Shown piece after piece: positions 773 to 27,946 of a stretch of DNA of 28,654 bases. Within the stretch, counting starts at the first letter, position 1. Every line of letters begins with the position of its first letter. The stretch is from a virus, in the IMG/VR virus record IMGVR_UViG_3300025120_000382, positions 1-28,654 of that record, one strand, 5' to 3'. The translations under genes and the position numbers were made by a program. Below the pieces are notes generated by a model. That model was not told the origin of the DNA and did not search any database. It saw nothing but the letters and a program-made list of their open reading frames with translations.

Positions 773-782
773 TCATAAATAT
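773..782 (-). promoter_or_regulatory. Late-type promoter motif before GIY-YIG gene
   Basis: Reads ATATTTATGA on the minus strand, 35 bases before the ATG at 737. It matches the ATATTTATRA motif found before seven other starts or promoters in this window. There is no TTGG box 19 bases further upstream. The longer spacing than at the other sites (11-15 bases) lowers confidence. Confidence 0.5.
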
Positions 783-818
783 TAATTTAATATTGCTAAC
801 AACCTACATATATAGTTA

Positions 819-1898
819 TTATATAGATATTTTTAAAGTACCAAAAGAATCTCTATAAAGTTGACCTACATTTCCTGGGTCAGAAGTTGGTAAACCTCTC
901 ATCATTACAACCGATGTACCCCCTGCTGATCCACTTACTGTTAAGTTATTTACAAATGTTGTACATACAGAAGATGCTATAATATCTGAACCTACTATAA
1001 ATGCACAATTCTTACTATTAATAGTACTCGTACAACCACCTATAATAGAAGAATATGCTGAGCTAATAATTTGGTTATTACAACCAGCTTTAATAGTAGA
1101 GTGATCAGACCCATACCCAGAAATAGTGTTATTATTACCTCCAATTATTTGATTATGTCCAGATGAATATTCAGAAGAAATAGTGTTGTTTGAACCCGCA
1201 ACTATACCATTAAAAGTATTGTAACAACCACTAACAGTGTTATTTACACCTGCTAATATGTGCATATTACCAGCGGTTGGTCCAGTAATAGTATTATTTC
1301 TACCACCTCCAATTTGATTTTGTCCATAAGCAGAACTAATAGTGTTTTTACAACCTCCTGCTATAATATCTCTAGCACTTGATGCTGTATTTAATATACC
1401 ACCTCCTATTACTGAACCTGCACCTGATGATAAATTACGTTCTCCACCTCCTATAAAACTTAAATTTCCTGATGCAGTGTTTCTTATCCCACCTCCTATA
1501 AAACTACATGCTGAAGTAATCTTATTAAAGTCACCTGAAGCAATAGTAGAATTAGTACCAGTATTTTCATAAGTACCAAAATTTGATGGTATTATATTAC
1601 TAGTACTAGAACCCGTTTTATATACTTCATTTCCATCATCTCCATCATCAATACTAGCAGTATTCATTTTAAATATCTGACCAGTTGTTCCATCATAAGA
1701 TAAAATAAAAGGTTTAATTTGAGTTAAAAGTGTATCAGGTTCTATAAATTGAGATCCAGTTACTTTAAAGGACCCAGATACTGATATATCATAATCTTTT
1801 TGATTTACAGCTGAAAAAGCGTCTATGGATTGTGAGACCTGTTGCGCTTCTACCGTTTGTCCGGTTTCTATGCCAGTGTTTGATAATATTCTTGCCAT
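819..1898 (-). CDS. Tail fibre / tail-tip protein with 15-residue beta-roll repeats
   Basis: A 359-residue Gly/Ser/Asn-rich protein. Residues 1-110 form a non-repetitive attachment region. Residues 131-190 hold four copies of a 15-residue repeat of the type FIGGGxxNTASG (Ile at 134, 149, 164 and 179), continuing as looser copies (IIGGNNNTISG, IIAGGCKN) to about residue 305. Repeats of this kind form left-handed beta-rolls in trimeric adhesin heads and in phage fibres. The last 25 residues (LPTSDPGNVGQLY, then a short TLKIS tail) match a C-terminal end often seen in phage structural proteins. It has its own late-type promoter and is last in the run of fibre genes. I infer a receptor-contacting fibre tip, which is not proven by the sequence. 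Confidence 0.75.
   Translation of the reverse strand: MARILSNTGIETGQTVEAQQVSQSIDAFSAVNQKDYDISVSGSFKVTGSQFIEPDTLLTQIKPFILSYDGTTGQIFKMNTASIDDGDDGNEVYKTGSSTSNIIPSNFGTYENTGTNSTIASGDFNKITSACSFIGGGIRNTASGNLSFIGGGERNLSSGAGSVIGGGILNTASSARDIIAGGCKNTISSAYGQNQIGGGRNNTITGPTAGNMHILAGVNNTVSGCYNTFNGIVAGSNNTISSEYSSGHNQIIGGNNNTISGYGSDHSTIKAGCNNQIISSAYSSIIGGCTSTINSKNCAFIVGSDIIASSVCTTFVNNLTVSGSAGGTSVVMMRGLPTSDPGNVGQLYRDSFGTLKISI
1329..1508 (-). repeat. 45-bp imperfect tandem repeats encoding beta-roll coils
   Basis: Four consecutive 45-bp units encode the 15-residue repeat of the fibre protein. For example, the 17-base string ccacctcctataaaact on the plus strand occurs at 1444-1460 and again at 1489-1505, exactly 45 bases apart. 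The identity is at DNA level as well as protein level, so recent duplication or conversion between units is plausible. Confidence 0.75.
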
Positions 1899-1913
1899 TA
1901 TTAATATTGTTTA

Positions 1914-1923
1914 TTATAAATAT
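1914..1923 (-). promoter_or_regulatory. Late-type promoter motif before fibre gene
   Basis: Reads ATATTTATAA on the minus strand, ending 15 bases before the ATG at 1898, in the 28-base gap after the previous gene. There is no -33 box. It matches the consensus ATATTTATRA seen at the other late-type sites. Confidence 0.65.
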
Positions 1924-1926
1924 AAA

Positions 1927-3027
1927 CTATCTATCTATATTCACTAAAATTGTAGTATCAGTTGTAGGTGATGACTGTAATGGTTGAGCTAACTTACCAA
2001 CTGCTAATAATTCAAAATTTTTATTATATAATCCTACAGTTGTAATGTATGGTTCAAAAAATGAACTTGTTGTAAAATCTAAAGGCTTACCAATAGAAGC
2101 TGTATTTTCCCAATTTATATCACTTCCAGAAAATCTTGTTGGTATTTCACTTCCTGTTATTGCACTTGGGTTTAATGTATAGTTAAATTCATTTTCATTT
2201 AAAGTACATTGGTATTGAGTTTCAAACAATTTATATGAACTAGAAAATGACATAGTTACATCTTCACTTCTAATCCAAGCTGAAATATAAGCTTCTTTTT
2301 CAATTTGGTTACCACCATAAATTCCTGTTCCATAAACTGATTGACCATATAAACTATTTGCATCAGTAGTATTAACAGAATCAAATAATGTTACAATACC
2401 ATGTTGATATATAATATTACCTTCCATATATTCATACCCTGTAGCTGGTTCATTAGGATGTTTCCATAATAATCTTCCTTCACCATCATCTTTAATTGAA
2501 CCACTAGGCCCTTCAAATAAAAAGGATTCGGGTTGTATATAATCTCCAAATAATTTTGAAGGAATTGAAACTATTCCTATAGGAACAGAAGAAGTAGTAG
2601 CACTAGCTGTTGGAAACTGTTTATTAGGCCAAAGTGTTGTTTGTTCGTAGTTATAAAAATTAGATTGTTGGGTTTCCCCAATTATAGTATTACCAGCTTC
2701 ATTAGCCCCTAATAAAACACTAGCGGTTACAGCTTCTTGAGTAAATCCTTTACTACCTGTAAGATAATTTGTATAATAAAGCTGTTTAATTGAATCATAA
2801 AGTAAAACTATAGGGATTGCAGGTCCTCCTATATTTTGGAGGTTGCCCTTATCAGTAAATATTGGTTGGCTTCCAGAGAGTAGATAATTTCCACTCCTTC
2901 CTATATACCTTCCAATACCAACATTAGAGCCAGTTAAGGCATTACCACCAATAAAGTGAAATCCTTTGTTTACCTCAAATGGAGATACTATTAAATCTTG
3001 AGAAGTTAATTGTTTGTAAGCGCTCAT
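1927..3027 (-). CDS. Tail/baseplate structural protein, paralogous C-terminal domain
   Basis: A 366-residue Ser/Thr/Gly-rich protein without transmembrane segments or recognised enzyme motifs. Its C-terminal ~95 residues (from about residue 272) contain NEFNYTLNPSAITGS and later TTVGLYNKNFELLAVGKLAQP. The upstream neighbour at 3033-4106 has the same signature at its C-terminus (NEFNYTENPSFISGSS, then TVGLYNDSNDLLAVAKLSRP). The two genes are therefore paralogous at least in that domain, which I take to be a shared docking or assembly module. The N-terminal parts differ. Only 5 bases separate them and there is no promoter motif, so this gene is probably read from the promoters near 4800. Exact role unknown; a virion structural role is inferred from the context. 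Confidence 0.65.
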   Translation of the reverse strand: MSAYKQLTSQDLIVSPFEVNKGFHFIGGNALTGSNVGIGRYIGRSGNYLLSGSQPIFTDKGNLQNIGGPAIPIVLLYDSIKQLYYTNYLTGSKGFTQEAVTASVLLGANEAGNTIIGETQQSNFYNYEQTTLWPNKQFPTASATTSSVPIGIVSIPSKLFGDYIQPESFLFEGPSGSIKDDGEGRLLWKHPNEPATGYEYMEGNIIYQHGIVTLFDSVNTTDANSLYGQSVYGTGIYGGNQIEKEAYISAWIRSEDVTMSFSSSYKLFETQYQCTLNENEFNYTLNPSAITGSEIPTRFSGSDINWENTASIGKPLDFTTSSFFEPYITTVGLYNKNFELLAVGKLAQPLQSSPTTDTTILVNIDR

Positions 3028-3032
3028 TCATT

Positions 3033-4106
3033 TTAGAAATCTAATTTAACTCTAACAAGAGCTTCTTTTGTAAAATCTTTTTGTATAGGTCTTGACAATT
3101 TAGCCACAGCTAATAAATCATTACTATCGTTATATAAACCAACTGTTGTTGGGAATGTTTGAGGGTTGTTAATAAAGTAAGAATAAATTACTTCACCCGA
3201 TGAACCTGATATAAATGATGGGTTTTCTGTATAATTAAATTCATTGTTTCTAGCTCTAATAAATACATAATCAGATGTTAATGTTTCTTGTGAATTTAAT
3301 TCAAATATATTACCAATACTATTTCCTAATGATGCTGAAAATGCTCTATATAATTTAGAAGGATTATCACCAGCTGTATTAGCAGTAGTAATAGTACCAA
3401 TATCAATACCTCCATCTCCAGTTACTGAACCTGATAAAGCTGCGTTATTTAATAATATTGTTGAAATATCAGGACAAAACCAACCATAAGAACCACTACC
3501 TGGAGTAAATCCATTTCCTCCAGCTGCTGAATTATATGCTATACCATCAGAACCACTTATCATTTGGTAAACTCTTTGTGTACCATAATAAGTTGGTAAA
3601 GTTACCATTCCAGAATTATCTGTTAAATATATAGTCTCTGTAGACCCATTATTACTACCAGATAATGCTATATTAATGGTACCAGGTAATAAAGATTGTT
3701 TATATCTTGCTCTTTCTATACTAATAGCATAAAAATCATTATCTCCATTAGCACTTCCTGTTGCTGTATCACCCCATATAAAATTTGCATTTTCATCCTC
3801 TAGAATTAATGTTCTATATTGACCATAAATTGTAGTTGTTGGAGATACAAATGGTACACTACCATCGAAATTAACTCCACCACCACCATTTTTATTGGCA
3901 TATGCAATTTGGAATTGTACTGCTGCAGAGTCATCATTTGAGGCTGTTTGATAAACACTCAAATAATAAGGACCCGAGCTTCCTTCTTTTTGAACAGAAG
4001 ATGTAAAAAATGTGTTTAATGAAGGAGAATTATTACTCCATACAGTTGAAGTTACCGAATCGGAACTTACTACAAAATCTTCTGGATCTAATCTTTTAAA
4101 TGCCAT
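3033..4106 (-). CDS. Tail/baseplate structural protein, paralogous C-terminal domain
   Basis: A 357-residue Ser/Asn/Gly-rich protein, middle gene of the 4782-1927 run. The C-terminal part (from about residue 281) carries NNEFNYTENPSFISGSS followed by TVGLYNDSNDLLAVAKLSRP and ends in a beta-type segment. The same module ends the next protein downstream (1927-3027). The start begins MAFKRLDPEDFVVSSDSV, and the downstream protein has a comparable N-terminal phrase (LTSQDLIVSPFEV), so homology may extend to the N-terminus. The spacing to the neighbours is 4-5 bases on each side, indicating tight co-expression. No catalytic motif seen. I read it as a virion tail or baseplate component of unknown exact position. 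Confidence 0.65.
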   Translation of the reverse strand: MAFKRLDPEDFVVSSDSVTSTVWSNNSPSLNTFFTSSVQKEGSSGPYYLSVYQTASNDDSAAVQFQIAYANKNGGGGVNFDGSVPFVSPTTTIYGQYRTLILEDENANFIWGDTATGSANGDNDFYAISIERARYKQSLLPGTINIALSGSNNGSTETIYLTDNSGMVTLPTYYGTQRVYQMISGSDGIAYNSAAGGNGFTPGSGSYGWFCPDISTILLNNAALSGSVTGDGGIDIGTITTANTAGDNPSKLYRAFSASLGNSIGNIFELNSQETLTSDYVFIRARNNEFNYTENPSFISGSSGEVIYSYFINNPQTFPTTVGLYNDSNDLLAVAKLSRPIQKDFTKEALVRVKLDF

Positions 4107-4110
4107 ATTT

Positions 4111-4782
4111 TTATGATGTTAATGATTGTTTTGTTATTGTTACTGGTATTGTTAATCTTGCTCCACTATCTAACCCTGTTACTGTTAATGTTGTTCTTAA
4201 TTGAGAATTTGCACCAAATAAGGTATTAACTGTTGTTGCTGTTAGATTGAATTGAGTTCCAATTACAGTTTTAGAAACACTAGTTCCTATAGTTTGTGTT
4301 GCATTTGCATTGGCATCAATAGCTGCTTGTGTTTGTATTCCTTGACCTGCAAAATTACTAAGTAATCTTACATCACCAATAGTAGCACTGTATCCTGCTG
4401 TTTCAAACGATTGTTCATTACCTAAATAATTTAAGGTTTGAGGAGTAATTGCTAATATAGCACCTTGTTTCATTGTTATAGCTGCATATCCTAAATCTAA
4501 TACAGGTAACTTAGCTGTACCTCTAGGTAATGTAGTTAATTTGTACTTCATAATTTGAAGTTCACTTGGAAATGCTTCTAATAAGGGCATATTGTCAATT
4601 GCTTCACCATAATATGCAGAACCTGATGGATGATTTGGATTATAAAGTGTATAATCAATTTCATCATCTCCTAATGCAAATTGTGTAATTGTAAATGAAC
4701 CATCGTTAGATGCTAACAATTCTCTTCCTTTTGTAGTCAATATAGCATCAACTGTTATTACTGCGTTGTTTAAATATCCCAT
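4111..4782 (-). CDS. Virion structural protein, tail-module type
   Basis: A 223-residue protein whose first half has a strong, compact pattern: VDAILTTKGRELLA at about residues 11-24, FALGDDEIDYTLYNPNHP at about 36-53, then a PRGTAKLPVL segment near residue 86. I recall this pattern from structural proteins of marine T4-like phages but cannot assign a structural position. The second half (about 145-223) is Thr/Ala-rich and beta-like. It is first in the three-gene run 4782-1927 and is preceded by two late-type promoter motifs in the gap after the giant gene. No membrane segment, no enzyme motif. Confidence 0.6.
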   Translation of the reverse strand: MGYLNNAVITVDAILTTKGRELLASNDGSFTITQFALGDDEIDYTLYNPNHPSGSAYYGEAIDNMPLLEAFPSELQIMKYKLTTLPRGTAKLPVLDLGYAAITMKQGAILAITPQTLNYLGNEQSFETAGYSATIGDVRLLSNFAGQGIQTQAAIDANANATQTIGTSVSKTVIGTQFNLTATTVNTLFGANSQLRTTLTVTGLDSGARLTIPVTITKQSLTS

Positions 4783-4794
4783 TATGTTGTTTTT

Positions 4795-4804
4795 ATATAA
4801 ATAT
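4795..4804 (-). promoter_or_regulatory. Late-type promoter motif, proximal
   Basis: Reads ATATTTATAT on the minus strand, 12 bases before the ATG at 4782. It has one base difference from ATATTTATRA. A better match lies 10 bases further upstream (4814-4823), so one of the two may be a decoy. Confidence 0.45.
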
Positions 4805-4813
4805 TGTTATATG

Positions 4814-4823
4814 TCATAAATAT
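4814..4823 (-). promoter_or_regulatory. Late-type promoter motif, distal
   Basis: Reads ATATTTATGA on the minus strand, 31 bases before the ATG at 4782 and 10 bases after the stop of the giant structural gene. It is identical to the site at 773-782. It would drive the 4782-4106-3027 run. Confidence 0.55.
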
Positions 4824-4832
4824 GTGTTCTTA

Positions 4833-7800
4833 TTAAGATTCTATTATTCCTTTAGAAATTAAATCATTTACTATTATCGATGCACTTTGTACTAGATAAT
4901 CTGTTGGAAAATCGGGGTACAATATACCAGGGGTTTCTGCAATCTCCAAGCTACTAAATGAACTACTTAATGAACCACTAACAGCTTCAAAATTTCCTGG
5001 GGTTCCATTGTCTACTCCAGATCCTATTAAACTTCCTGTTAAACCAAATGATCCTGAAAATGATCTTACTTCCTGGCTTATACTTGCACTTGCTAATGAA
5101 TCGTAAGGGAATGGTTGATCTAGATATAATGAATTAGGGTTTACAATAGATCTTCTTACTAAGAAGAAATCTTTATTTATAGATTCATCTACTGGTTTAT
5201 TTAATTTAATTTTTAGTCTATTTCTACCATCTGGTGTTCCACTATTAGCTTGTGGAGAAAATACTTGCTCTATAGTATAAGTAAAGTTTTCATTATTAGC
5301 AAATCTAATTTCATCACCAATTTGTAATTCTAATGTATTTTCTATTTTATCAAACCTTGTAGTTTTTGGTTCTATACCTCCTGGAAAGTATGGAGATGGA
5401 GAAGGGAAATATTCTAAATCCGCTTGCCTAAATGATTCTCCATAGGCTTCATTCATATTAGAAGATGACATTACTAAGAATTGTTGGTCTATTATTGTAG
5501 GACTACTAGTACCTGATGAACCTGAAAATACCCAAAATGGAGCTGAAGCTGTATTTGCTTCATCTTGTAAATGATCATATGCTCCTACTGCTTCTAAATT
5601 AGCAGATACATATTGCCCTTCAAAACCAAGTGGAAAAAACATTCCTTGTTGATACCCACCTCTTGCATTTTTAAATCTTCCGTTAAATCTCCATTGTATT
5701 GAATCTTGTTGTTTAATAGTATAAGCACCAGAGTTAGCTTTAATATTCCATTCTAGAGCTAATACCCCAGCACCATTTTTAGGTTTTCTTTTTCTCATTA
5801 AACCTAGATCAAATAAGGTTTCATACATTTCCCAATCAACTATACATCTAATTCCACCTGTTGGTACTGGTACATATGAGTATTTCCATCTGTTGATACT
5901 CCAACCTGCTCCTTTAAGATTTTTACTCCTTCTTCTTTTTTCGTAATCTACTATATTTACAATTGAAAACCAACCATAAGTAAGTACACTTCCAATATCC
6001 GTTGCTCTACCATCATCTGTGTAAACAGTACAAGTAATATCTTCAATATTAAATGAAGTTTCTGTTCCTTCAGCATACCCAGATTCTGGATCCTCTGGAT
6101 CTATAGAACCTGTGTACATATGTAATTCAAATTGTAATTCATCCCTTACTTTTTTAGTTTCACTTACATAAGAAGTTACAATTGAATTTTGTAAGGTTAT
6201 AATTTGTTCATTAGGTAAATCTTGTCCTATAGCAGATGTTGGAATACCACTATTATAATAGTTAATAGGGTAAAATGCTACCCCATTTACTGGTCTTAAA
6301 GTAGTTTGATTAAATCTTGTAGTTAATGGATTAAAAGCATTTGCTGAGCCAGAAGTTACTGTTGTTTTTGGATTTATAATATAATCTACAGATTGTTTAG
6401 GAAGGTTTACAAGAACATTTGATGGAGCACCTAATGCATTAAATCCACTAAATATTTGTTCTCCTCCATCATCATTATCATAACGTGATATATAACCAGA
6501 TCCTGATAATGGTATTATATTTGCATAATTATTACCCGCATTTTGTGAATACATAATTGGAGTTAAATACTGCATTAGTCTACTAACTGGGGCAGGTGTT
6601 CCTAATACTCTAAAATTATTTTTACCTGATTTTGGTGCTATTTTAGCTGATGTAGTAGTAGGGAAAACTTGTTCAAAAGTATCTATACTCAATTGATTTA
6701 ATGAAGGAGGTAAAGCATTACCTTGTTCATCAATCAGATAATTTAAATTAACTCTAGTTAAATTGTTTATATTTGGGTATGGATCATCCAAATCATTAAA
6801 ATATCCAAAAAATGCATCCTTTAATTCTACTGTTGGATTTTTACCAAAGGTACCAGTATCACCAACATTCCAAACATTTAATTGTTGGCTTGTTGATTTT
6901 GCCCCATTATATCTAGGGTTAATAGATCTAATCTGAGTGTAATTTGATTCTGGTGTTGCTGCTCTTAAAGCATTACCTGTTAATATTTGTCTTATATTTA
7001 CTGGTGCTATTGAACTAGAAAAATAAGTAGTTGAGGATTGCCAATTGTAATCTATATCCATTAAGTATGGATTTAATCTTTGAGTAACAAAATTATTTAG
7101 TAATGGTTGACAATCTAAAGCTAAACTAAAAGGTAATACATTACCTGAAACAAATGTAGGTATTATAACTGATACTGGGATAGGTGCTTTAAATATATTC
7201 GCTCCTGGTGGTGAAGAAGGTAATGGGTCTGACCATATAGAGCTACTATTAAATACACTAAATGTATATGAACTAATGTCTAAACCATAATTAAATGTTT
7301 TTTGTAAACTAATACCCATTCTAAAAGTATCACCTAAAGCATAATCAAATATTTCTGTAGATATAGATCCTTGAAACTGAGCTATTCCTGTTGCAGTTAG
7401 AGATAAGGAATTAAATACTGGTCCACTTGCAACTACTGTTCCTATTTCATTTGTTGATTCAGGAGTATTTTTTGTAATATATATTGATGCTGATACAAAA
7501 TCAGTTCCACCAAAGTCTCCATTTATAGATTGAGAAATTATTAATTTACTTCCTGTATTTATAACAGAAGGTAATGCAATATTATCATCAGAATTATCGT
7601 TCCAATTAAATATAGTATCGGAATTAAGTTGTCTTTCGTCAAAATTTGACATACTAAATTCCATATAGTATATATCTCCAGCTTGATTAATTGTTGATCC
7701 GTTACCTAAATTAGATGGATTTGCAGCTGGCCAATTTGTAACTCCATCTCCATTATCTCCATGATAAGGATGTAAAATATCCAAAATAGGACTATCTGGG

Positions 7801-10800
7801 AATTCTACTATTTCATTATAATTATCCCTTTGTATACTTCCACCTCCAAATTTTCCACCACCCGCAACTTCTGTTCCTGTTCCTAAATTTAAAGTATAAG
7901 TAACTGGTGCAGATGATGTTATTAATTGGGGTGCGCCTGCTATATTACCAGAAGTTGAATCAGCACTACCACTTAACTTCATTAATCTAGCAGTAACTTG
8001 TACTTGATTAGGAATTCTTTTATCTGAGTTATTAGCTACAGTTAATACATTAGTTGTGGGGGTAGATGTTCCTGTTCCTTGACAACTTGGTGTATTTATA
8101 ATTGGAGAATTTCCTTGTGTTACATTCCAATTATACCCAGTCTGAACACTACCACCTGTTAGAGTAACAGAACCATTTGATGAGGGGTATGAAAATTGAG
8201 GTATAATTTTAATATCTTTAATTTGATAATTAAATGCACCTTCTTCTAAACCTTTTACAAAGGGTTTAATATATAATATAGCACTATTGTTACTTGCCCC
8301 TAAATAATTTGATCTATCAGTACCTGTAAAATTAGGAGCTGTAAAGTATTGATTAAAATCTAGTTGACTAAAAGATGCTGTTACTTCCCATCTCCCTGTA
8401 GTTCCATTTTCAGTCATATAAGATTCTCCACCACCACCAAGTAGACCACCACCTGTTCCTCCATCTGTTCTTATATATGTTCCAGAGGCAATATTTGTCT
8501 GAAAATCAGCTTGGGCACCTACAAAATATTGTGATAATGGAGTTGAAGGTGGTGTATTAAGAGATGTACCCATTGTTAGTCCTTCTAAATAATTAGTAGG
8601 CACTGTTCCATCATTAGTAGATGCCCCATATGCACTGGCAGATATATTAGTACCTGTTGGTGCTATTATTGTATAAAATACAAGTAAAGTGGCAGCTGTT
8701 ATAGGGTTTCCTGTAGCTTGGGAATTTCCTCCTGCATCATTATTTGCAACTGTTTGATTATGAAACCAATTCATGTTTACTCCTATTGCTCCATCTACAT
8801 CATCAAAAGTAGTTATATCTACCATACTAGTTTGACCTCCTACATTATATTTAAAATCATCATTACTACTTAAAGATGATCCTGAAAAACTTGTAAAACC
8901 GAATGTTAAATCAGGAGCGGGAGTTGTTGTTTGATTAAATTCAAATTTAGGAAAATGAAAATCAAAAGATGCGGTACCCGGACTAATAACTTGAGCATTA
9001 CCTGCTAAATAGTTTGGGTTTGGTTTAGTAAAAGGAGAATTTATTTCTTGAGATGGTACAAAAAGTGGATTAGGTACATCACTTCCTACACCTGGATTAG
9101 CCCCACCTGTACCAGCATCTGAATCATACCAACTTGCTGAGTTACCTGGGATTAAATTGTCAATCATTTCCCCTAAAGTATTTTCTTGAAATTGAGTATT
9201 TTGTAAAGATAATAAATGCGGCGCAGGTCTATAAATGGAAGATGAATTATATGTTCCTGGAGCTGCTCCTAATGTAAATTGTTGATCATATGCAGTTCCT
9301 AAGTTACTACTAGCTGATGCATATATACCAGAAGATGTAATATTATTAGTAAATCCTAATTCCGATGCTGAATAAGCAAATGAACAACTAAAAGCTAAAG
9401 GTGTGTTAGGTGTTTTTTGCAAAGTAAATCCTCCAAAATCGCTATATTCACTTGGATTATTAATTATATCTTGTGTTGTTACTGTTGATGATCCAGGGTT
9501 AAAAAAGCCTAATACATCTAGTCTAGGGTTTTCTGTAGTATCTGCACTTGTTATTCCTGCTTGGTCACCGTAATAATATATATTTTGATTTGTAATTAAA
9601 ACGGGATCATGAAAATATCCCTGATTTCTTAAATCACTACCACCACTTGAACTATAACTACCGGTTGCATCTAATAATGTATAATCCTCTTGACCACCTT
9701 TTATTGATGATGTTACATCAGCATCTAAACTAGAACCTATATTTAATAAGGTATGAGTAGAATAATTTGTAACCCCTTGTATATAATATTTTGCTCCACT
9801 AAGTATAACAGTAGTACCTTGCTGGAGATAATCTGTTGTTTCAAGACCATTGATATCTTGTTTTGCCAATTTAATAAATTTAACAGTACTTTTAGGGACT
9901 GCTTTTGATGTTTGAGAACTAGCAACTTCATCTAATGATGAACCTATCCATGCAAATCCTAAAGGAGGAATGTTATTTAAATCTACAAAGGTCTCAGAAG
10001 TAACTGAGCCTTCTAAACTATCTGTAAAAGAATAATAAACTGGTTTATATGTAGCACCTTTATCTGCTACATTAAGATAGGGACCACAATTAGGATTTAA
10101 AATACCATCTTCAACTTGTATATAAGAACCACTAAATATACCATCATAAAATTCTGATTGGTTTGATTTAATAAAAGATGATGGACCCGGATATTTACCT
10201 TCACCACCACTGGCACTTATGTATTGTGAACTACTTTGATTAAAAATAAGACTATCAATTACTGATGAAGAGAAATTTTGATCCCAACTTTGAGTTATAC
10301 CAAATCTATTATTGGGTCCTAATCCTTTTGACCCCGAAGGGTAAGTTGTCATACTATTAAATCTTTCAAATGAACCACCAGTTCCACCAGTAAATTTATA
10401 AAGGGCTGACCCTGAAGTTGAATATTGAGGGAAATCAGATGATCCTGAACTGTAATTTTTAGGTAAATTTACTACTAAACCTTCATAATCATGTAAAGAT
10501 GATGATGCTTGAGGAGGTGTTTTTCTATTTCTTTCTAATAAATGTTGTTTTACTACTACACCAGAAGCTAAACTCATTCTAGCGGGAGTAAAATCTTTAA
10601 TCATTTTAAATAATGAATTATCAAAGAATTTTATTAATCTAACAAAATCAACTATATCATAACCTCTTATATATTTTTCAAAATATGCATCTCTTAACCT
10701 ATCTAAATTAGGATATGAATCAAGTGATGAAGAAACAAATCTTGGATCACCTATATAATCTCCTAAATTAAAATAACCTAACTGAGCGTTGATATCATCA

Positions 10801-13784: not shown

Positions 13785-13793
13785 ATTTTATTT

Positions 13794-15517: not shown

Positions 15518-15527
15518 AATTTTTTAT

Positions 15528-17833: not shown

Positions 17834-17839
17834 AATTTT

Positions 17840-18214
17840 TTATTTACTATTCATTAACCCCATTATTTGATCCATACTAACATTTCCTTGTGGTAAAGTA
17901 CCATTTGGGGAGGTAGTATCTACAGCACCAGTCATTTGTAAAGGCACATCTGCTGATGTAGCACTAAGTGTTCCATTTGCACCTGGCATCATACCTCCTA
18001 ACACATTTTGAATATTTTCTTTCATTGCCATTCTTTTATCTTCTGGCATTTTTTGTTGTGCTATAGGATTTATTGATGGTGGTGTAGAGGATGAATTTTC
18101 ATAGACTACAGATTTAGGAGCACGGACAGCTTCTATAAGAATGTCTTTCATTTCCTCTTGTATAGCCTCTTTTACGGCTTCTTTTACAATAGTTTTTAAT
18201 TGACTTAATTTCAT
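17840..18214 (-). CDS. Small protein with N-terminal amphipathic helix, unknown
   Basis: 124 residues, unrecognised. The first ~30 residues form a strongly charged amphipathic helix (LKTIVKEAVKEAIQEEMKDI); the rest is Pro/Ser/Met/Gly-rich and probably flexible, with a short NVLGGMMPGANG segment and a final DQIMGLMNSK helix. It is the first gene after the late-type promoter at 18229-18238 and leads the gp25-gp6 operon. A scaffold-like or chaperone-like assembly role would fit, but nothing in the sequence proves it. Confidence 0.55.
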   Translation of the reverse strand: MKLSQLKTIVKEAVKEAIQEEMKDILIEAVRAPKSVVYENSSSTPPSINPIAQQKMPEDKRMAMKENIQNVLGGMMPGANGTLSATSADVPLQMTGAVDTTSPNGTLPQGNVSMDQIMGLMNSK

Positions 18215-18228
18215 GTTATATTGATTTA

Positions 18229-18238
18229 TTATAAATAT
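18229..18238 (-). promoter_or_regulatory. Late-type promoter motif, baseplate operon
   Basis: Reads ATATTTATAA on the minus strand, 14 bases before the ATG at 18214 in the 28-base gap between operons. No TTGG box lies 19 bases upstream. It is the only promoter candidate seen for the run 18214-17833-17426-15517-14357-13784. Confidence 0.65.
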
Positions 18239-18242
18239 TAAA

Positions 18243-20021: not shown

Positions 20022-20022
20022 A

Positions 20023-21300
20023 TTAAATAGTTTTTACAATTTTAGAAACATAACTTTTTATATTAGTTAACATTAATGTAATTTGTGTTTTTGCTGAAGC
20101 AGCAGCTCCTGTACTAACTCCTAAATTTGGCTCAATTGATAGTTGTTGGGTTAAATTTTCTAATTTTCCTAATAAATCAGCAAAATCTTCCATAAAAGTA
20201 TCTCCAAGCATAACTGATTGGTTAGCACTTACATCCCCTAATCTTACATTATTTTTAGCTGATTGTATTACAACATCTCCTTCTCTTGAATATAAACCTA
20301 TAGTACCCAATGAGGATAAAGATATAGTTTTTTGAGAATTTAAAAGTATACTATCTGTTTTTGTATTAAATAATAACCTATCAGAACTTAATATAACTTG
20401 GCTCCCATTATAAGAACCTATAGATTCAGGTTGTTCATTTGAGTTTATAGAAGGATTATTTTTTATTGAGGTTATAAGTGGGATTTGTTGGTTTGAAGTT
20501 AAATAAATGGATGATAAATCTCTATTTATATTTTCAACAATAGGTAAAAAACCTTCTGGGTTTGAATCTGTGGGTTGACCATTTCTTATTATAGTTATAG
20601 GATTACCATTATCACCACTAATTGACCAATTATTATCATATATTATACTGTCCGATTTTGTTGTACTACCAAATCTAATAGAATTACCCCATCTTCCTTC
20701 CAATATTACATCCCCAGCATAAGCTAATAAAGGATGGATATTTGATCTTTCAGAAAAAGTCCCCCCTATAATAGGGGAATTATAATCATAATCAATTTCT
20801 TCATTTGAAGATTTACGAGTTTGACCTTCTTCTATTTGTTGGTATGATTTATTTTGTGAGGGTTGTGTTGTTGTACTTAATTCTATATCAGGATATGCAT
20901 TTAAATGTTGATTATTCCATAACGCAACGGGATTTAAATAAAAATATTTTTTAGTATTACTATTTAAACCAACACTATTATTGGGTGCTAAAAATAATAA
21001 AACAATTTCATTTACAACAGGGTAACTTTTTATATATGGTAATAAAGGTGAGGCAGTATTTAATTCATCAGGGTTTAGTTTAGCAGACGCTTCTACTTGT
21101 TCATAAAATATAGTACCCATAGAAGACCATTGCCCTAAAGTATCAAATTTAGGATGTTGGTCATCCAAAACAATATCCACCACTCTAGCAAAAATAAAAT
21201 TATTAGCCAGTGATTTTATTTGTTGTTGAACAGCTGATTGGTTATCTCTTCCAGAATTTAAATTAGAATTAACCCCTGCAAATCCGTATTTACTTTTCAT
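20023..21300 (-). CDS. Baseplate hub / central spike protein, gp5-like without lysozyme domain
   Basis: 425 residues. The N-terminal part (FARVVDIVLDDQHP at residues 37-50, NEIVLLFLAP near 97-106) looks like the OB-fold of gp5/VgrG-type hub spikes. GGTFSERSNIHP and LAYAGDVILEGRWGNSIRFG at about 180-211 resemble the segment joining the OB-fold to the beta-helix. The tail (about 300-370: SQVILSSDRLLF, SISLSS-type turns, GDVVIQSAKNNVRLG) reads as alternating beta strands, as in the gp5 C-terminal prism. No lysozyme catalytic domain is inserted, unlike T4 gp5, so cell-wall digestion must be done elsewhere. The start has one of the few strong Shine-Dalgarno sequences in the window (GAGGAG, 8 bases before the ATG) and overlaps the preceding gene by 11 bases. 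Confidence 0.75.
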   Translation of the reverse strand: MKSKYGFAGVNSNLNSGRDNQSAVQQQIKSLANNFIFARVVDIVLDDQHPKFDTLGQWSSMGTIFYEQVEASAKLNPDELNTASPLLPYIKSYPVVNEIVLLFLAPNNSVGLNSNTKKYFYLNPVALWNNQHLNAYPDIELSTTTQPSQNKSYQQIEEGQTRKSSNEEIDYDYNSPIIGGTFSERSNIHPLLAYAGDVILEGRWGNSIRFGSTTKSDSIIYDNNWSISGDNGNPITIIRNGQPTDSNPEGFLPIVENINRDLSSIYLTSNQQIPLITSIKNNPSINSNEQPESIGSYNGSQVILSSDRLLFNTKTDSILLNSQKTISLSSLGTIGLYSREGDVVIQSAKNNVRLGDVSANQSVMLGDTFMEDFADLLGKLENLTQQLSIEPNLGVSTGAAASAKTQITLMLTNIKSYVSKIVKTI

Positions 21301-21646
21301 TTTTTTTCTCCTCGAAATTAGTATTTAATTTATCTAATTCTTTCATTAATTCTGCTTTTTCTTCCTCCGTTATACCCATTGATTCTTCACCACCACTATT
21401 ATTAAGCGCACGCTGTACTATAGTAGCCATTTTAATTAATTGTTCATCGTTACGAACGCCAATTTCCATATATTCTTTAATAAGTGGTACAATTAAAGTT
21501 GCATCACCAATATCATTAATAAGTGGTTTTAATTCGGAGATTAATCCTGTTATTTGTGTTTCTTTTTTCTTTTGATTATCGTATATTTCGCTAAGTATAT
21601 CCGAAAATTTTTTCTTCTTAAATACAATATTATCTAATGATCCCAT
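21290..21646 (-). CDS. Small helical protein of tail module, unknown
   Basis: 118 residues, all-helical, charged at both ends. Notable phrase: LINDIGDATLIVPLIKEYME at about residues 42-61, then EQLIKMATIVQRAL. No known domain recognised by eye. It is the first gene after the late-type promoter at 21658-21667 and overlaps the hub/spike gene by 11 bases, so it is probably translated in step with it. Small helical proteins in this position of T4-like genomes are usually tail assembly factors or minor baseplate parts; here that is inference only. Confidence 0.6.
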   Translation of the reverse strand: MGSLDNIVFKKKKFSDILSEIYDNQKKKETQITGLISELKPLINDIGDATLIVPLIKEYMEIGVRNDEQLIKMATIVQRALNNSGGEESMGITEEEKAELMKELDKLNTNFEEKKNEK

Positions 21647-21657
21647 AATGTGTTTTG

Positions 21658-21667
21658 TTATAAATAT
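21658..21667 (-). promoter_or_regulatory. Late-type promoter motif, hub/spike operon
   Basis: Reads ATATTTATAA on the minus strand, 11 bases before the ATG at 21646, in the 36-base gap after the sigma factor gene. There is no -33 box. It would drive 21646-21300-20021. Confidence 0.65.
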
Positions 21668-21682
21668 GGATATAGAAAAGAT

Positions 21683-22387
21683 TTAGAATCTAGCGTAACC
21701 ATTTTCTAAATAAAAGATATACTGTGATTTAAATATATCATGAAGTTTATCTGCTATTTTAGTGATTTTAGGTGTTTTTACATCTACCATTTCTCTTATG
21801 TAAATATAAAGTGCTTTTTTATTAAATACTTCTAATGTTTCTCTTTTACGAAATAGTTCTAATATAGCATCTGCTATTTGGGCATCATTCTTTTTTGGAA
21901 ATAATTCAAATATATTTTCTGATGTATGATCTACAAATAGGTCAACATATTTATCTAAATCACTTTTAACTTTTTCATCTCCTTGAGAATATGTATGTGT
22001 AGAATTTTCACTAGTTAATACTTCTACTCCTACCTTGTTAATTTTCTTTTTATAATTTTTGGTATTATATAAAATTAACCAACGTTTAACAATAGTACCA
22101 AAATAAGAATATGCCTTAGCACCCCTAGTAGGATCAAATAAATGCATTTTAGATAACAAAAATGTAATTATTTCATGTTGTAAATGCTCTAAATTTTCTA
22201 CCTCAGTATGGTAAAATTTAAATGTATGAATTATATTTTGAGTAAGTTTAAAAAAGGGATAATGAATGTGAGTTTCATATATTCTACTCCTTTTTTTTGA
22301 GTTTTTGGTATTATTATATAATACAATATAATTTTCTGTTTCTTGAGTAAAATAATTTTTACTCTTTTTTCTTCTTTTTTTAGGCAT
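21683..22387 (-). CDS. Late-transcription sigma factor, T4 gp55-like
   Basis: 234 residues. After a very basic start (MPKKRRKKSK) comes a sigma-70 region-2-like helix bundle: PFFKLTQNIIHTFKFYH at about 44-60, LQHEIITFLLSKMHLFDPTRG at about 69-89 (the FDP-x-RG phrase is the sigma region 2.2-2.3 hallmark), then AKAYSYFGTIVKRWLI at about 90-105, corresponding to the DNA-melting and -10 recognition part. No region 4 helix-turn-helix is visible, as in T4 gp55, which explains why the late-type promoters here lack a -33 box. gp55 directs the host core polymerase to late promoters, in T4 together with the sliding clamp. Its gene sits just upstream of the structural operons. The call as a late sigma factor is good; details of promoter choice are inference. 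Confidence 0.8.
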   Translation of the reverse strand: MPKKRRKKSKNYFTQETENYIVLYNNTKNSKKRSRIYETHIHYPFFKLTQNIIHTFKFYHTEVENLEHLQHEIITFLLSKMHLFDPTRGAKAYSYFGTIVKRWLILYNTKNYKKKINKVGVEVLTSENSTHTYSQGDEKVKSDLDKYVDLFVDHTSENIFELFPKKNDAQIADAILELFRKRETLEVFNKKALYIYIREMVDVKTPKITKIADKLHDIFKSQYIFYLENGYARF

Positions 22388-22670
22388 TGTTGTCGGGGTT
22401 AGTTTTAAATTGAGATAAACCTTTTTGTAAAACCTTTATTTCATTAAAAAACCAACCAATTTCATCATCACTTTTAAATGTACCCGCCTTATCAATTTGT
22501 TTTAATCTTTTTTCTGAGAAGGTAACGTGTTCATCTACTTTGTTAATAAAATGTTGTTGCGAAATTATAATATCTTCAGCTTTTTCATTTTTTTTAAGTA
22601 GATTAAAAGTCGTAAACCCAAAGGTAACGACTATTAAACTTAATACTATAATGGAAACTATTAATATCAT
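22380..22670 (-). CDS. Small membrane-anchored protein
   Basis: 96 residues. Residues 2-24 form one strong transmembrane helix (LIVSIIVLSLIVVTFGFTTF), followed by a charged helical cytoplasmic or periplasmic part and the phrase FKSDDEIGWFFNEIKVLQ at about 65-82. No Cys near the N-terminus, so it is not a lipoprotein. It overlaps the HD phosphohydrolase gene by 4 bases (ATGA) and the sigma factor gene by 8 bases, so these three are a coupled unit. Its architecture resembles that of the rightward protein at 27397. Function unknown. Confidence 0.6.
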   Translation of the reverse strand: MILIVSIIVLSLIVVTFGFTTFNLLKKNEKAEDIIISQQHFINKVDEHVTFSEKRLKQIDKAGTFKSDDEIGWFFNEIKVLQKGLSQFKTNPDNNA

Positions 22671-23440: not shown

Positions 23441-23445
23441 AACTT

Positions 23446-23814: not shown

Positions 23815-23968
23815 CCATTGACTTTAAATCTTCTATAATACCTTGTGCTTTTACAATCCCTTCTTTATAAGTTGAAAGTGGTTCCTGTGTATTTACAATA
23901 CGCTGGAGATTGATTAATGTGTGGTCTAATTGATCTAATTTTCTGTTAATTAATTCTCTATTTCTCAT
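23765..23968 (-). CDS. Small helical protein, unknown
   Basis: 67 residues, mostly one long charged helix (RELINRKLDQLDHTLINLQRI) and a second one (KAQGIIEDLKSMVEREP), which could form a helical hairpin. No known domain recognised. The C-terminal QSSGEQNSSVR tail overlaps the longest frame of the Cys-rich gene. The 131-base gap upstream contains no clear promoter motif, only a purine-rich strand. Confidence 0.5.
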   Translation of the reverse strand: MRNRELINRKLDQLDHTLINLQRIVNTQEPLSTYKEGIVKAQGIIEDLKSMVEREPQSSGEQNSSVR

Positions 23969-24099
23969 AACTTTATTATATTTAATATGGTACTGTATTA
24001 TACCCCTTGTTGCCTTTATTATCCATCCCTTTTTATTCCCTTTTCCAATAAACCTGTAATATTAATGTACGAGGGATTTTTTGTATATCCTAATTATCT

Positions 24100-24525
24100 T
24101 TAAATTTCTTTAACTATTTGTTGAATTTTAAAAAGATGTGCGCATTTTTCATATTCCTCATATTCTTGAAAATATGAAATAGCATCATTTAATACATTAT
24201 AAAATACTTTATTATCAAAATTTATTATTGCATTAATATCATCAGGGTTTTCAATATTAATATTTTGGATATAGGACCATGCTCTATTATATACAGTAAA
24301 TTCAGATGCTTCTTTTGTAGATTCTACATTATAATTAGGTTGTTCTTTTTTAAGAAACTTTTCTAATTTTTGGTGAAATATTTTATGATTTTGAATTAAT
24401 TTGACAAACATTCCTATTTTAGCAAAAGGACCATTCATAAAATCCTTTAATTCATTTTTTGTTTTTGGATCTTCAATTTCTTTTCCATCTACAAATAATT
24501 GAAATAATTTATCCTTATTTATCAT
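24100..24525 (-). CDS. Helical protein, unknown
   Basis: 141 residues, predicted almost entirely helical, with the phrases KDKLFQLFVDGKEIEDP (4-20), LKDFMNGPFAKIG (26-38) and several aromatic-rich segments (VFYNVLNDAISYFQEYEEYE). No enzyme motif. The ATG overlaps the SNase-type gene by 4 bases (ATGA), with a G-run (GGGGGG) 5 bases upstream that may serve as a ribosome site. Probably co-transcribed from the late-type promoter at 24879-24888. Confidence 0.5.
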   Translation of the reverse strand: MINKDKLFQLFVDGKEIEDPKTKNELKDFMNGPFAKIGMFVKLIQNHKIFHQKLEKFLKKEQPNYNVESTKEASEFTVYNRAWSYIQNINIENPDDINAIINFDNKVFYNVLNDAISYFQEYEEYEKCAHLFKIQQIVKEI

Positions 24526-24866
24526 CTTTTCCCCCCAAAATATTCTACAGCATGTCCCTCTGTAATTAGTAAATCATTTAATTTTACATCTCCTAAAAAT
24601 ATATCCCCCAAGCATCTACCATATTTCCCTACCCCCTGGGAGTGTAGTATAAATTCATTATTATGTTTATTTAAAATATCTTTAACAAATTGTTTAGCAG
24701 CTAACCCTCTAGATTTTTCTTCAAGATCTCTAGTTCTTGATTCAGCGGCATTTATACCAACTAATCTAATTCTAATCTTCTTCCAGGTATCGAAACCTAA
24801 ATCAATTGTGGCATCAATAGTATCTCCATCAACTACTCTATCACATTTTGCTTTATATATGTACAT
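24522..24866 (-). CDS. Staphylococcal-nuclease-like (TNase/SNase) nuclease
   Basis: 114 residues, a minimal SNase/OB-fold nuclease. Motifs: VVDGDTIDATIDLG at 11-24 with metal ligand D15 (SNase D21), IRLVGINAAES at 33-43 with R34 (SNase R35) and the general base E42 (SNase E43), and GKYGRCLGDIF at 80-90 with R84 (SNase R87). The second SNase metal ligand, D40, is replaced by N39, which may lower but not necessarily abolish activity. There is no signal peptide, so it acts in the host cytoplasm, perhaps degrading host DNA or processing phage DNA. A late-type promoter lies 12 bases upstream. Confidence 0.85.
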   Translation of the reverse strand: MYIYKAKCDRVVDGDTIDATIDLGFDTWKKIRIRLVGINAAESRTRDLEEKSRGLAAKQFVKDILNKHNNEFILHSQGVGKYGRCLGDIFLGDVKLNDLLITEGHAVEYFGGKR

Positions 24867-24878
24867 AATAACGTTTAG

Positions 24879-24888
24879 TTATAAATAT
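24879..24888 (-). promoter_or_regulatory. Late-type promoter motif before SNase gene
   Basis: Reads ATATTTATAA on the minus strand, 12 bases before the ATG at 24866 in the 25-base gap. It matches the structural-gene promoters, which would place this nuclease in the late regulon. Confidence 0.6.
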
Positions 24889-24891
24889 GTA

Positions 24892-25101
24892 TTACTTATT
24901 TAATTCTACTAATTCTAATTCAATATCAGTTTTTATTTGTTTAAGTATATCAAATTCTTTCCTAACATCTTTAATATCTGGATTATCTGGGTGGTATCTC
25001 CATAATTCTTCCATTACAGTAGTTGTTGCTAATAAATCATCTATTAGTTCTGATTTTTGATTATCTAATTCTTGTTGGGGTGTTAATTTTAATTCCTTCA
25101 T
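24892..25101 (-). CDS. Small helical protein, unknown
   Basis: 69 residues, two charged helices joined by the phrase LWRYHPDNPDIKD at about 34-46. No domain recognised. The start follows the T5orf172-type gene by 1 base, so it is translated as a continuation of that message. I recall short proteins with a similar YHP-xNP phrase in other T4-like phages, but no role is known. Confidence 0.5.
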   Translation of the reverse strand: MKELKLTPQQELDNQKSELIDDLLATTTVMEELWRYHPDNPDIKDVRKEFDILKQIKTDIELELVELNK

Positions 25102-25102
25102 C

Positions 25103-25573
25103 TTATTTAAATTTATTACCTATTAAGTTAATTGTTTCTTTTGCTTCTTCCAAACTAATTTGAAAAAATTCTTTATTATTATTTATTCGTTGCGCCTTTA
25201 ATTTATGATGTACTTCTCTTTCAACCATTTCACCATTAAAACATTGGTATGCCCATTCTACCTTATAGGGAAGAGCAACACCTGTTGCTGATGATATTTG
25301 TTTAGCTCGTTCTTCAGGTAATTTTTTAGTGTACCCAATTTTTAACAACCCAGGAGATGAAGGGTTTGATAATACATATACCCATTGATCTCCATCACCT
25401 TTATCTGCATATACCCCATATTTTTTATCGGTATAATACGTTATATCTTCCCATCCATCACCTCTTGCGCTGGGTGATAGTGTAAAATATTTAGCGTATT
25501 CTAAATCCGTATTTCCATAATTTTCACGAAGGGGGATAAACCCCTTCGCTTTATTTTTTGTTATTCTTTCCAT
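25103..25573 (-). CDS. T5orf172 / MUG113-type GIY-YIG-related protein
   Basis: 156 residues. Residues 63-145 form the T5orf172-type domain: QWVYVLSNPSSPGLLKIGYT at 63-82, EERAKQISSATGV at 87-99, EREVHHKLKA at 118-127 and NKEFFQI at 133-139. This domain is distantly related to GIY-YIG nucleases and is often fused to DNA-binding parts in phages. Here the N-terminal ~60 residues (GFIPLRENYGN, GWEDITYYTDKKYG) could be that partner. The ATG overlaps the DUF932 stop by one base. A perfect 8-bp hairpin lies in codons 9-16. Whether it nicks DNA cannot be told. Confidence 0.65.
   Translation of the reverse strand: MERITKNKAKGFIPLRENYGNTDLEYAKYFTLSPSARGDGWEDITYYTDKKYGVYADKGDGDQWVYVLSNPSSPGLLKIGYTKKLPEERAKQISSATGVALPYKVEWAYQCFNGEMVEREVHHKLKAQRINNNKEFFQISLEEAKETINLIGNKFK
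25527..25548 (-). promoter_or_regulatory. Perfect hairpin within first codons of T5orf172 gene
   Basis: Plus strand CGAAGGGG (25527-25534), a 6-base loop, and CCCCTTCG (25541-25548). In the coding-strand message this hairpin occupies roughly codons 9-16. On the plus strand it is followed by a T-rich run (25549-25559) and would look like a rightward intrinsic terminator, but no rightward gene lies to its left. A translational control hairpin is therefore one option and an antisense terminator another. Confidence 0.5.
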
Positions 25574-26382
25574 TATGCTACTAATTCTAATGCCTTACTA
25601 AACATTTTTTTATTTACGTCCTGGTCTTGCTTAAAATTCTTAATAATTCTAGCTTGACGAACTTTTCCACCTTGAGTTTTATACTCAAAATTTCCATCAA
25701 TAATATTCTCTTGGATTCTATTAAATACTTCCCAAAGCATATTACCTTCATCTTTTTTACGTTGAATATTTAAAACATCTTCAATTGCTTGATCATCGTA
25801 GGTATTGTTAGTACCTTCTACTCTAATATCTAGAAATGATTTAGCAAGATTAAACATTTGCTCCTCTTCTAATTCCACATTTTTCATTTTATTCATTGCT
25901 TCTACTGTTAAAGGTAATTTCTCAACCATACCTCTAATTAAAACTTGCAAATCTTCAAACGTATAACCCATATGACGCATTTTTAAATCTGCAAATTCAT
26001 CTGTAGCTATAATTAAACCATTTTCACAAATCATTCTAAATAATCCCGCTGTAAATTGAAAGGCATTCTTACCATCATGAGAATTAGTGATTAATATTTG
26101 GGGATAAACTGTATCTCCATCTTCACCATTAATAACAACATCATCATTTCTAAATACCAGCATGTGTTTTTGAACACCCTGAGTATTTTCAGTTCTTGCT
26201 TTAACTTCCTTAGCATCAACTGGTTTCCAACCTAATAACTCCATATCATCAATCACTCTTTCCGTAGGAATATGTGTATACTTTTCTGATACTTCACTTG
26301 AAGGTTTCATTGTGAAAATACTTGGAGCCATTTCACTTAACTCTTTTTTACTTAAAAATTTACTACTTTCTAAATTTAACAT
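25573..26382 (-). CDS. DUF932 family phage protein
   Basis: 269 residues. The typical DUF932 core is visible: HMLVFRNDD at about 73-81, YPQILITNSHDGKNAFQFTA at 93-112, LFRMICENGLII at 114-125 and a long helical C-terminal half (VEAMNKMKN, QAIEDVLNIQRKKD). DUF932 proteins are common in phages and plasmids and have no settled function; a DNA/replication-linked role has been suggested from context. The gene has its own host-type promoter (26411-26443) and a leader with AAAGG 6 bases before the ATG, and starts the run 26382-25573-25101. Confidence 0.8.
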   Translation of the reverse strand: MLNLESSKFLSKKELSEMAPSIFTMKPSSEVSEKYTHIPTERVIDDMELLGWKPVDAKEVKARTENTQGVQKHMLVFRNDDVVINGEDGDTVYPQILITNSHDGKNAFQFTAGLFRMICENGLIIATDEFADLKMRHMGYTFEDLQVLIRGMVEKLPLTVEAMNKMKNVELEEEQMFNLAKSFLDIRVEGTNNTYDDQAIEDVLNIQRKKDEGNMLWEVFNRIQENIIDGNFEYKTQGGKVRQARIIKNFKQDQDVNKKMFSKALELVA

Positions 26383-26410
26383 ATGACCTTTATTTAATTA
26401 ATTATTTATA

Positions 26411-26443
26411 CCTAAATATACGAAAGGTAGCCTGGGGAGCCAA
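26411..26443 (-). promoter_or_regulatory. Host-type promoter for DUF932 gene
   Basis: On the minus strand TTGG (26440-26443), exactly 19 bases, then TATATTTAGG (26411-26420). This resembles the Bacteroidetes sigma-A promoter TTTG-N19-TAnnTTTG. The -33 box lies inside one arm of a terminator-like hairpin (26426-26449). The first base of the -7 box is 38 bases before the ATG at 26382. Confidence 0.75.
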
Positions 26444-26449
26444 GCTACC
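26426..26449 (-). terminator. Hairpin after SH3-like gene, overlapping next promoter
   Basis: A 10-bp stem GGTAGCTTGG / CCAGGCTACC with a single T-G wobble and a 4-base loop, starting 17 bases after the stop at 26467. Only TTTC follows, so the T-run is weak. It probably ends the 26760-26467 message and is combined with the promoter of the next gene. Confidence 0.5.
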
Positions 26450-26466
26450 TGCGCATTACTTTTAAA

Positions 26467-26760
26467 TTAACTATAAACTTCTGTTGTGAATGTTTTCTTA
26501 ACTAGCAAACTTGGTGCTACTGTATATGAACCTCTATCACCTTGAACTTTAATATTTTTAGCATTAATTTTAATAACTTTAAATGTTTCATTAGGAGATA
26601 TTTTTTTATGATCAATACCAACCATATCACCTACTCTAAATGATAATTTAGCATCATAGGCAAGTTCTGTTTTTCTAATAGAAACTGCATTTTTAATTTT
26701 ATTAAATTCTTGTAAATCTGAATTTTTAATGAATTCTAACACTTCGTTTAAATTTGACAT
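26467..26760 (-). CDS. Small protein with SH3-like C-terminal half, unknown
   Basis: 97 residues from the ATG at 26760. Residues 1-30 are helical (NEVLEFIKNSDLQEFNKIKN); residues 40-92 read as a small SH3/KOW-like beta barrel (FRVGDMVGIDHKK, then FKVIKINAKNIKVQG), a fold often binding RNA or nucleic-acid complexes. A longer frame starting with GTG at 26799 is rejected because that codon touches the -7 box of the promoter at 26799-26831; the chosen ATG has AAAGG 4 bases upstream. Flanked by matching host-type promoters on both sides, so it is probably expressed early as a single-gene unit. Function unknown. Confidence 0.6.
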   Translation of the reverse strand: MSNLNEVLEFIKNSDLQEFNKIKNAVSIRKTELAYDAKLSFRVGDMVGIDHKKISPNETFKVIKINAKNIKVQGDRGSYTVAPSLLVKKTFTTEVYS

Positions 26761-26798
26761 AACCTTTATTTTAATTAATCGCTCGAACCATTCGAACA

Positions 26799-26831
26799 CC
26801 TAAATATACGAACCCTATCCCGCGTCTCCAA
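26799..26831 (-). promoter_or_regulatory. Host-type promoter for SH3-like gene
   Basis: On the minus strand TTGG (26828-26831), exactly 19 bases, TATATTTAGG (26799-26808). The 19-base stretch ending in the -33 box (26828-26846, TAATGCACAGGAAGCTTGG) matches that of the DUF932 promoter (26440-26458) at 17 of 19 positions, so the two promoters share an upstream box. Confidence 0.75.
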
Positions 26832-26849
26832 GCTTCCTGTGCATTATTT

Positions 26850-27233
26850 TTAACTATAAGTAAATGTTATACCACCAGTACCTCTAAGAAATACTGTTCC
26901 ATTAAACGTTGTGGTAAGGGGGAAGTAATCAAATGTTCCCCCTCCTGGAGGAATAACTATAGACCATACATGGTTTTCAAATTCCCCTGGAGATTTAGAA
27001 GTAATTAAAGTATCTTGGTTAATATTAACAAAATTAGTAAAATTTGCCTTAGCAGGTTGAGCACTAAAACCATCAAAAGATCCATTTGCATCTCGAATAG
27101 CTTCCATTGTAAAATATGCAGAACCACTACAAGTAGGAGCTCCTATGGTTATATTATAAGTTTGATTAGCATCAAAAGTATCAGGGTTTAATATTCCTTT
27201 TCCATTTAGTTGACCGAAAGTTATTGTAGGCAT
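26850..27233 (-). CDS. Small beta-rich protein, probable virion component
   Basis: 127 residues, no signal peptide or membrane segment, predicted all-beta with many aromatic/Gly turns (PTITFGQLNGKG, AYFTMEAIRD, VWSIVIPPGGGTFDYFP, FLRGTGGITFTYS). No known domain recognised. It has a late-type promoter and lies at the right end of the leftward gene block, so I infer a small structural or decoration protein. The stop is followed within 4 bases by the upstream box of the next promoter, a very compact arrangement. Confidence 0.5.
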   Translation of the reverse strand: MPTITFGQLNGKGILNPDTFDANQTYNITIGAPTCSGSAYFTMEAIRDANGSFDGFSAQPAKANFTNFVNINQDTLITSKSPGEFENHVWSIVIPPGGGTFDYFPLTTTFNGTVFLRGTGGITFTYS

Positions 27234-27245
27234 AGTATGATTTTA

Positions 27246-27255
27246 TTATAAATAT
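27246..27255 (-). promoter_or_regulatory. Late-type promoter motif before small beta-rich gene
   Basis: Reads ATATTTATAA on the minus strand (preceded by GT), 12 bases before the ATG at 27233. There is no matching -33 box at 19 bases. It faces away from the rightward promoter at 27347-27377. Confidence 0.6.
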
Positions 27256-27377: not shown

Positions 27378-27396
27378 GGTATATAAAAAATGAACA

Positions 27397-27933: not shown

Positions 27934-27946
27934 ATAATACTAAACT

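Follow-up and report, generated by a model that had tools for sequence, protein, structure and literature searches.

Putative late promoters carrying a T4-type box with an altered centre in uncultured T4-like phages

1. Introduction

In a viral DNA fragment of 28,654 bases (the whole stretch that was analysed, hereafter the window), short gaps upstream of genes carry the word ATATTTATRA, whose core TATTTATA is the letter-for-letter reverse complement of TATAAATA, the late promoter box of T4. The locus raises the question of whether this word marks late promoters and, if so, in which direction and by which factor it is read; the original prediction had raised the possibility of a gp55-like sigma factor reading the T4 box inverted. 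The analysis presented here indicates that the sites are very probably real late promoters of the T4 kind with an altered centre, acting through a mechanism that we infer.

The minus strand of the window carries nearly all of its genes, among them those for baseplate wedge proteins, and the gene order is syntenic with that of immuto (MW353175), a T4-like Flavobacterium phage whose genome is complete. The phage is probably a T4-like myovirus of a Bacteroidota host, presumably marine flavobacterial; genome bins, taken as host evidence, bear mixed labels, some of them Flavobacteriales. Relatives of the sigma-like protein encoded in the window are found in 541 candidate stretches of the viral collection, and a second query of the same collection returned at least 600 rows. 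A single open reading frame of 2983 aa (4833-13784, minus), which lies inside the tail gene region, has no PHROG match.

2. An Exact Word in Front of Minus-Strand Genes

All eight sites originally listed lie where they had been placed, on the minus (gene) strand and in gaps, with a start codon following after 11-35 nt; seven are exact copies of ATATTTATRA and one is a variant. Going along the window, ATATTTATGA at 773..782 (minus) lies 35 nt upstream of gene 255-737 and ATATTTATAA at 1914..1923 (minus) 15 nt upstream of gene 819-1898. The variant ATATTTATAT at 4795..4804 and a second box, ATATTTATGA at 4814..4823 (both minus), precede the same gene, 4111-4782, by 12 and 31 nt, so that the eight sites serve seven genes. 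The copy of ATATTTATAA at 18229..18238 (minus) stands 14 nt upstream of gene 17840-18214, the head of the baseplate gene run, and has an equivalent site in many relatives. Another copy at 21658..21667 (minus) lies 11 nt upstream of gene 21290-21646, which immediately follows the sigma gene; most relatives have an equivalent site, and the corresponding place in immuto is position 78885. The last two copies of ATATTTATAA, at 24879..24888 and 27246..27255 (both minus), each lie 12 nt upstream of a gene (24522-24866 and 26850-27233, respectively). A ninth candidate, absent from the earlier list, is ATATTTATAT at 28067..28076 (minus), about 16 nt upstream of a short ATG open reading frame of about 36 codons.

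The motif search by strand and gene start that had been suggested as a check was run on the window, and it found no exact site within a gene or on the plus strand. All seven exact occurrences of ATATTTATRA are on the minus strand, noncoding and less than 40 nt from an ATG, a placement with a naive chance of about 1e-10 given that 7.8% of the window is noncoding. Among the 252 ten-letter words that contain five each of A and T, ATATTTATAA ranks first in promoter position, with 5/5 matches, while the runner-up has three and overlaps ATATTTATAA. When one mismatch is allowed there is no enrichment in the window (37 matches against 40 expected), and the signal therefore resides in the exact word together with its position. 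The absence of a -33 box, also part of the original prediction, is borne out by the lack of a TTG peak upstream of the late sites.

3. Conservation of the Box in Relatives

Unbiased counts of 8-mers upstream of genes recover the same element. In the window, ATATTTAT comes first (7 gaps against 0.4 expected, with 0 antisense copies); in immuto, TATTTATA comes first (20 against 1.6); and in phage Mel-JY01, ATATTTAT is second (15 against 1.55, again with 0 antisense copies). The top word upstream of genes is ATATTTAT in the marine clade (114 against 6.2 expected), CTATTTAT in the immuto-like clade (102 against 3.2) and ATATTTAT in the distant clade (101 against 6.9), that is, about 15- to 30-fold above expectation in the three clades, with few antisense copies. 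The element, with the core [AC]TATTTATA, thus leads the upstream words in hundreds of related phage contigs. The base before TATTTAT shows a clade-specific shift, being mostly C in the immuto-like clade (L138-L217 and immuto) and mostly A in the others. In the marine clade the commonest distance from the end of the box to the ATG is 12 nt. In the complete genome of immuto, the box is found upstream of the terminase, portal, tail sheath, tail tube, baseplate hub and tape measure genes.

LR756508 is a 484-kb phage that encodes a relative of the sigma-like protein; over the 100 kb covered (LR756508.1, 60001-160000) the box word is not enriched, and a different late promoter may be used there. A search of the open literature, whose coverage leaves out most subscription journals, turned up no prior account of the box.

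4. Two Putative Promoter Classes

A second kind of promoter occurs in the same phages. Three host-type (Bacteroidota) early promoters of the form TTG-N20-TATATTTA are present on the minus strand of the window, at 26413..26443 and 26801..26831, both followed by GG, and at 28490..28520, followed by CG. Written in full, these three elements (window 26411-28520, minus) read TTGG-N19-TATATTTA(G/C)G, with TTCG immediately before the box. One of them overlaps the called GTG start of the open reading frame 26467-26799, and the real start of that gene is therefore probably a later ATG. In immuto, the second class takes the form TATATTTAGG and lies upstream of mostly small genes at 60-77 kb. The TTG stands exactly 20 nt upstream in 22/22 TATATTTAGG sites of immuto and its relatives, in 5/5 early sites of the marine clade and in 5/5 TAT[AG]TTTGTA sites of Mel-JY01, making 32/32 overall, although TTG was not part of the search pattern. 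Among late sites, a TTG at 20-21 nt is found in only 3/119, 9/160 and 7/120 cases. The labels "early" and "late" follow gene content; in immuto, the structural regions hold 19/28 late words and 0/16 early words (Fisher P 5e-6).

The primary-sigma promoter of Bacteroidota consists of a -33 TTTG and a -7 TAHHTTTG (PMC6847099), which the early class, TTG-N20-TATATTTA/G, resembles. The late boxes differ from it in having neither the TTG nor the final G, and in tolerating C where the host-type element has A. It could nevertheless be argued that the late sites are themselves variants of the host -7 element, for which the host primary sigma would suffice without a phage sigma, and the box does agree with TAHHTTTG (consensus from PMC6847099) at 6/8 positions when aligned from its first T. 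This reading is unlikely and was rejected on the TTG test and on register: the late sites are without the TTG that stands at 20 nt in all 32 early promoters, they lack the G that ends the host box, and early and late words occupy different genome regions. Moreover, the C before TATTTAT in most immuto-like sites is incompatible with the TATATTT register seen in the early class, and these CTATTTAT sites also rule out pairing the late box with the host element as (T)ATATTT. Judged by strand, position, wide conservation and the split from the TTG early promoters, the sites very probably form a late-promoter class.

5. The Sigma-Like Protein

The candidate reader of the late box is a protein of 234 aa encoded at 21683..22387 (minus), proposed as a late sigma factor on the grounds of fold prediction and synteny. 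It shares 46% identity with immuto26A_153 and 36% with a Mel-JY01 protein. The AlphaFold2 model is all-helical (pLDDT 76), with helices at residues 15-117 matching sigma region 2 and forming a predicted sigma region 2 domain, followed by a C-terminal helical domain at 143-228. Almost all PDB fold matches of the model are sigma factors (best E 0.14), as are most viral matches, the best of which (E 9e-5) is to an unnamed entry. The sole match of PHROG 234 (late sigma) in the immuto genome is the sigma gene (E 0.008), a value that is weak given that this family also matches in several control genomes, and the only match in G002 is likewise the sigma gene; a further comparison with phrog_234 gave E 0.09-0.5. 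Alignment of gp55 with the sigma-like family by hhalign is collinear but weak (P 0.03, probability 1.7%). Searches of Pfam and PDB sequences with the sigma protein gave no match, and a single-sequence search of the viral collection with the Mel-JY01 sigma gave no relatives.

The protein also departs from gp55 in its build. A clamp-binding motif of the gp55 type (LDFLYE type) is absent from alignments of the sigma-like proteins, whose C-terminus is variable. The C-terminal domain, modelled alone with pLDDT 86, gave no structural match in the PDB, and an assignment to sigma region 4 or to gp33 was ruled out for want of a fold match. HMMs of gp33 and gp45 gave no accepted match in immuto, G001, G002, G003 or Mel-JY01, a result in which diverged clamps may be missed, since Mel-JY01 has an annotated clamp loader. 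The resemblance to sigma factors that had been predicted for the product of 21683-22387 thus stands on fold and synteny, but the protein would be only a remote relative of gp55 with a different C-terminus. Membership in the sigma family of T4 is weakly supported, with the predicted region 2 domain on one side and the weak sequence relationship, the missing clamp tail and the extra C-terminal domain on the other.

Just upstream, a small conserved protein with an N-terminal hydrophobic stretch is encoded at 22380..22670 (minus), overlapping the start of the sigma gene. The overlap recurs in three diverged phages, and a GxFxSDDEVGxFF-like stretch is conserved (window 22380-22670 minus; L003:27900-28193; L090:8430-8792; same place in immuto and Mel-JY01). 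The small gene was considered as a gp33 and discarded, its product having no match and looking membrane-anchored.

A review of T4 late transcription states that no fused late sigma has been found in nature (PMC2988020). It is conceivable, if doubtful, that the 234-aa protein is a single-chain late sigma, in which a region-2 domain and a C-terminal domain standing in for gp33 make up one polypeptide that would read TATTTATA independently of a clamp. Alternatively, the promoters could be correctly identified and yet be read by another phage factor, with the 234-aa protein acting elsewhere, as the link between the two consists of synteny, co-occurrence and fold alone. We regard this as quite improbable, because the word and the protein are found together in three diverged clades and the 234-aa protein is the sole late-sigma match found in immuto.

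6. A T4 Box with an Altered Centre

The T4 late promoter (TATAAATA), which depends on gp55, gp33 and the clamp gp45, resembles the sites described here in having just one 8-bp AT box, in the -10 position and with no -35/-33 element, an A-T rich downstream flank, a location before structural genes and a phage-encoded sigma-like reader, which is a proposed one in the present case (PMC2988020, PMC7892883). The window-type sites likewise show a single -10-like box without a -35/-33 element and, in immuto, a placement upstream of structural genes that matches the T4 type as judged by gene position. They depart from the T4 consensus TATAAATA in reading TAT-TT-ATA: here the centre is TT, A or C is preferred before the box and a run of A follows it, and the predicted reader is longer, without a clamp-binding tail and with no gp33 or gp45 detected in immuto or the relatives. 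In phages related to the window, TT predominates at the centre of TAT-NN-ATA, the opposite of T4, where TATAAATA precedes structural genes seven times and TATTTATA once. Natural variation of this box is on record. The late consensus of the T4-like phages KVP40, 44RR and S-PM2 is like that of T4, while in Aeh1 a/gC replaces TA at -13/-12 (PMC2988020); the difference in Aeh1 falls on the first two positions, and that of the window-type box on the centre (-10/-9).

This comparison bears on the direction of reading. TATAAATA can be written TAT-AA-ATA, and because its flanks TAT and ATA complement each other, its reverse complement is TAT-TT-ATA; changing the central AA to TT therefore yields the reverse complement, and no inversion is needed. 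A T4 box flipped relative to transcription, with protein-DNA contacts as in T4, would explain the exact complementarity, but this is highly improbable: the inversion is superfluous, it leaves no trace in the flanks, where the upstream side is variable and the conserved A-rich side lies downstream, and the direction of transcription is set by the bound sigma. The inverted reading originally put forward was rejected as unnecessary, the complementarity being a coincidence of letters for which two substitutions in the same direction suffice. The box is most simply the T4 TATAAATA with its centre (-10/-9) changed, apparently read in the normal direction.

In the structure of gp55, Y97 stacks with A-12, N13 and H95 contact A-9, and T99 forms a bond with A-8; A-12 and A-8 are flipped into pockets (PMC7892883). 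The mapping of these residues onto the relatives rests on a weak hhalign alignment, given how faint the sequence relationship to gp55 is; on that alignment, the Y97 position is Tyr in 198/198 relatives, the H95 position is Tyr/Phe in 198/198, and the T99 position is Gly, Ser or Gln, though A-8 is kept. The replacement of H95 is suggestive in that it would fit an altered base choice at -9.

Finally, a translation-initiation or mRNA-leader signal in place of a promoter might be suspected from the spacing of 10-14 nt before the ATG in most marine-clade sites and from the lack of Shine-Dalgarno sequences in Bacteroidota (PMC6847099), but it is scarcely credible, as the word is absent before operon-internal genes, many Mel-JY01 sites lie 30-45 nt before the ATG with a Shine-Dalgarno-like GGAG in between, and the spacing in immuto ranges between about 1 and 68 nt.

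7. Proposed Mechanism and Implications

Taken as a whole, the preferred reading, which we hold to be likely, is that late promoters with the single box [AC]TATTTATA would be read in the same direction as in T4 by the phage sigma-like protein, and early genes from host-type promoters. The host enzyme would transcribe the early genes and the operon holding the sigma gene from TTG-N20-TATATTTA/G promoters. Once made, the sigma-like protein would bind the host core RNA polymerase and recognise the -10-like box [AC]TATTTATA in its normal orientation on the non-template strand, with no -33 element. Relative to T4, the TAT before and the ATA after the centre are kept, including A-12 and A-8, with only the AA at -10/-9 replaced by TT. 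We infer that the sigma-like protein reads the box and acts late, and likewise the positions of transcript starts. In the window, the host-type promoters lie about 4 kb upstream of the sigma gene with one late box between, and in immuto the sigma gene is likewise downstream of host-type promoters; in both, the next gene after it in the direction of transcription begins with a late box. This arrangement fits a simple cascade, in which transcription by the host enzyme yields the sigma, which in turn activates the late genes.

Mel-JY01 (PP395634.1, L087-L090) has Microcystis recorded as its host and early promoters of the Bacteroidota type, made up of CTTGCATA and then TATATTTGTA with TTG at 20 nt (e.g., record positions 68716, 129954 and 143673). 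Its true host may be a member of the Bacteroidota from a mixed culture, or such promoters may be carried for another reason.

The group of phages using TATTTATA is made up of ocean and lake relatives of T4 with a predicted distant and differently built relative of the T4 late sigma. The box would provide the late-promoter code of very common uncultured T4-like phages (at least 600 relatives), whose late genes could be marked from sequence alone. It would also offer two natural tests, one of a gp55-like factor that changes its base choice at -9/-10 while -12 is kept, and another of how T4-type late transcription, perhaps clamp-independent, proceeds on the divergent polymerase of the Bacteroidota.
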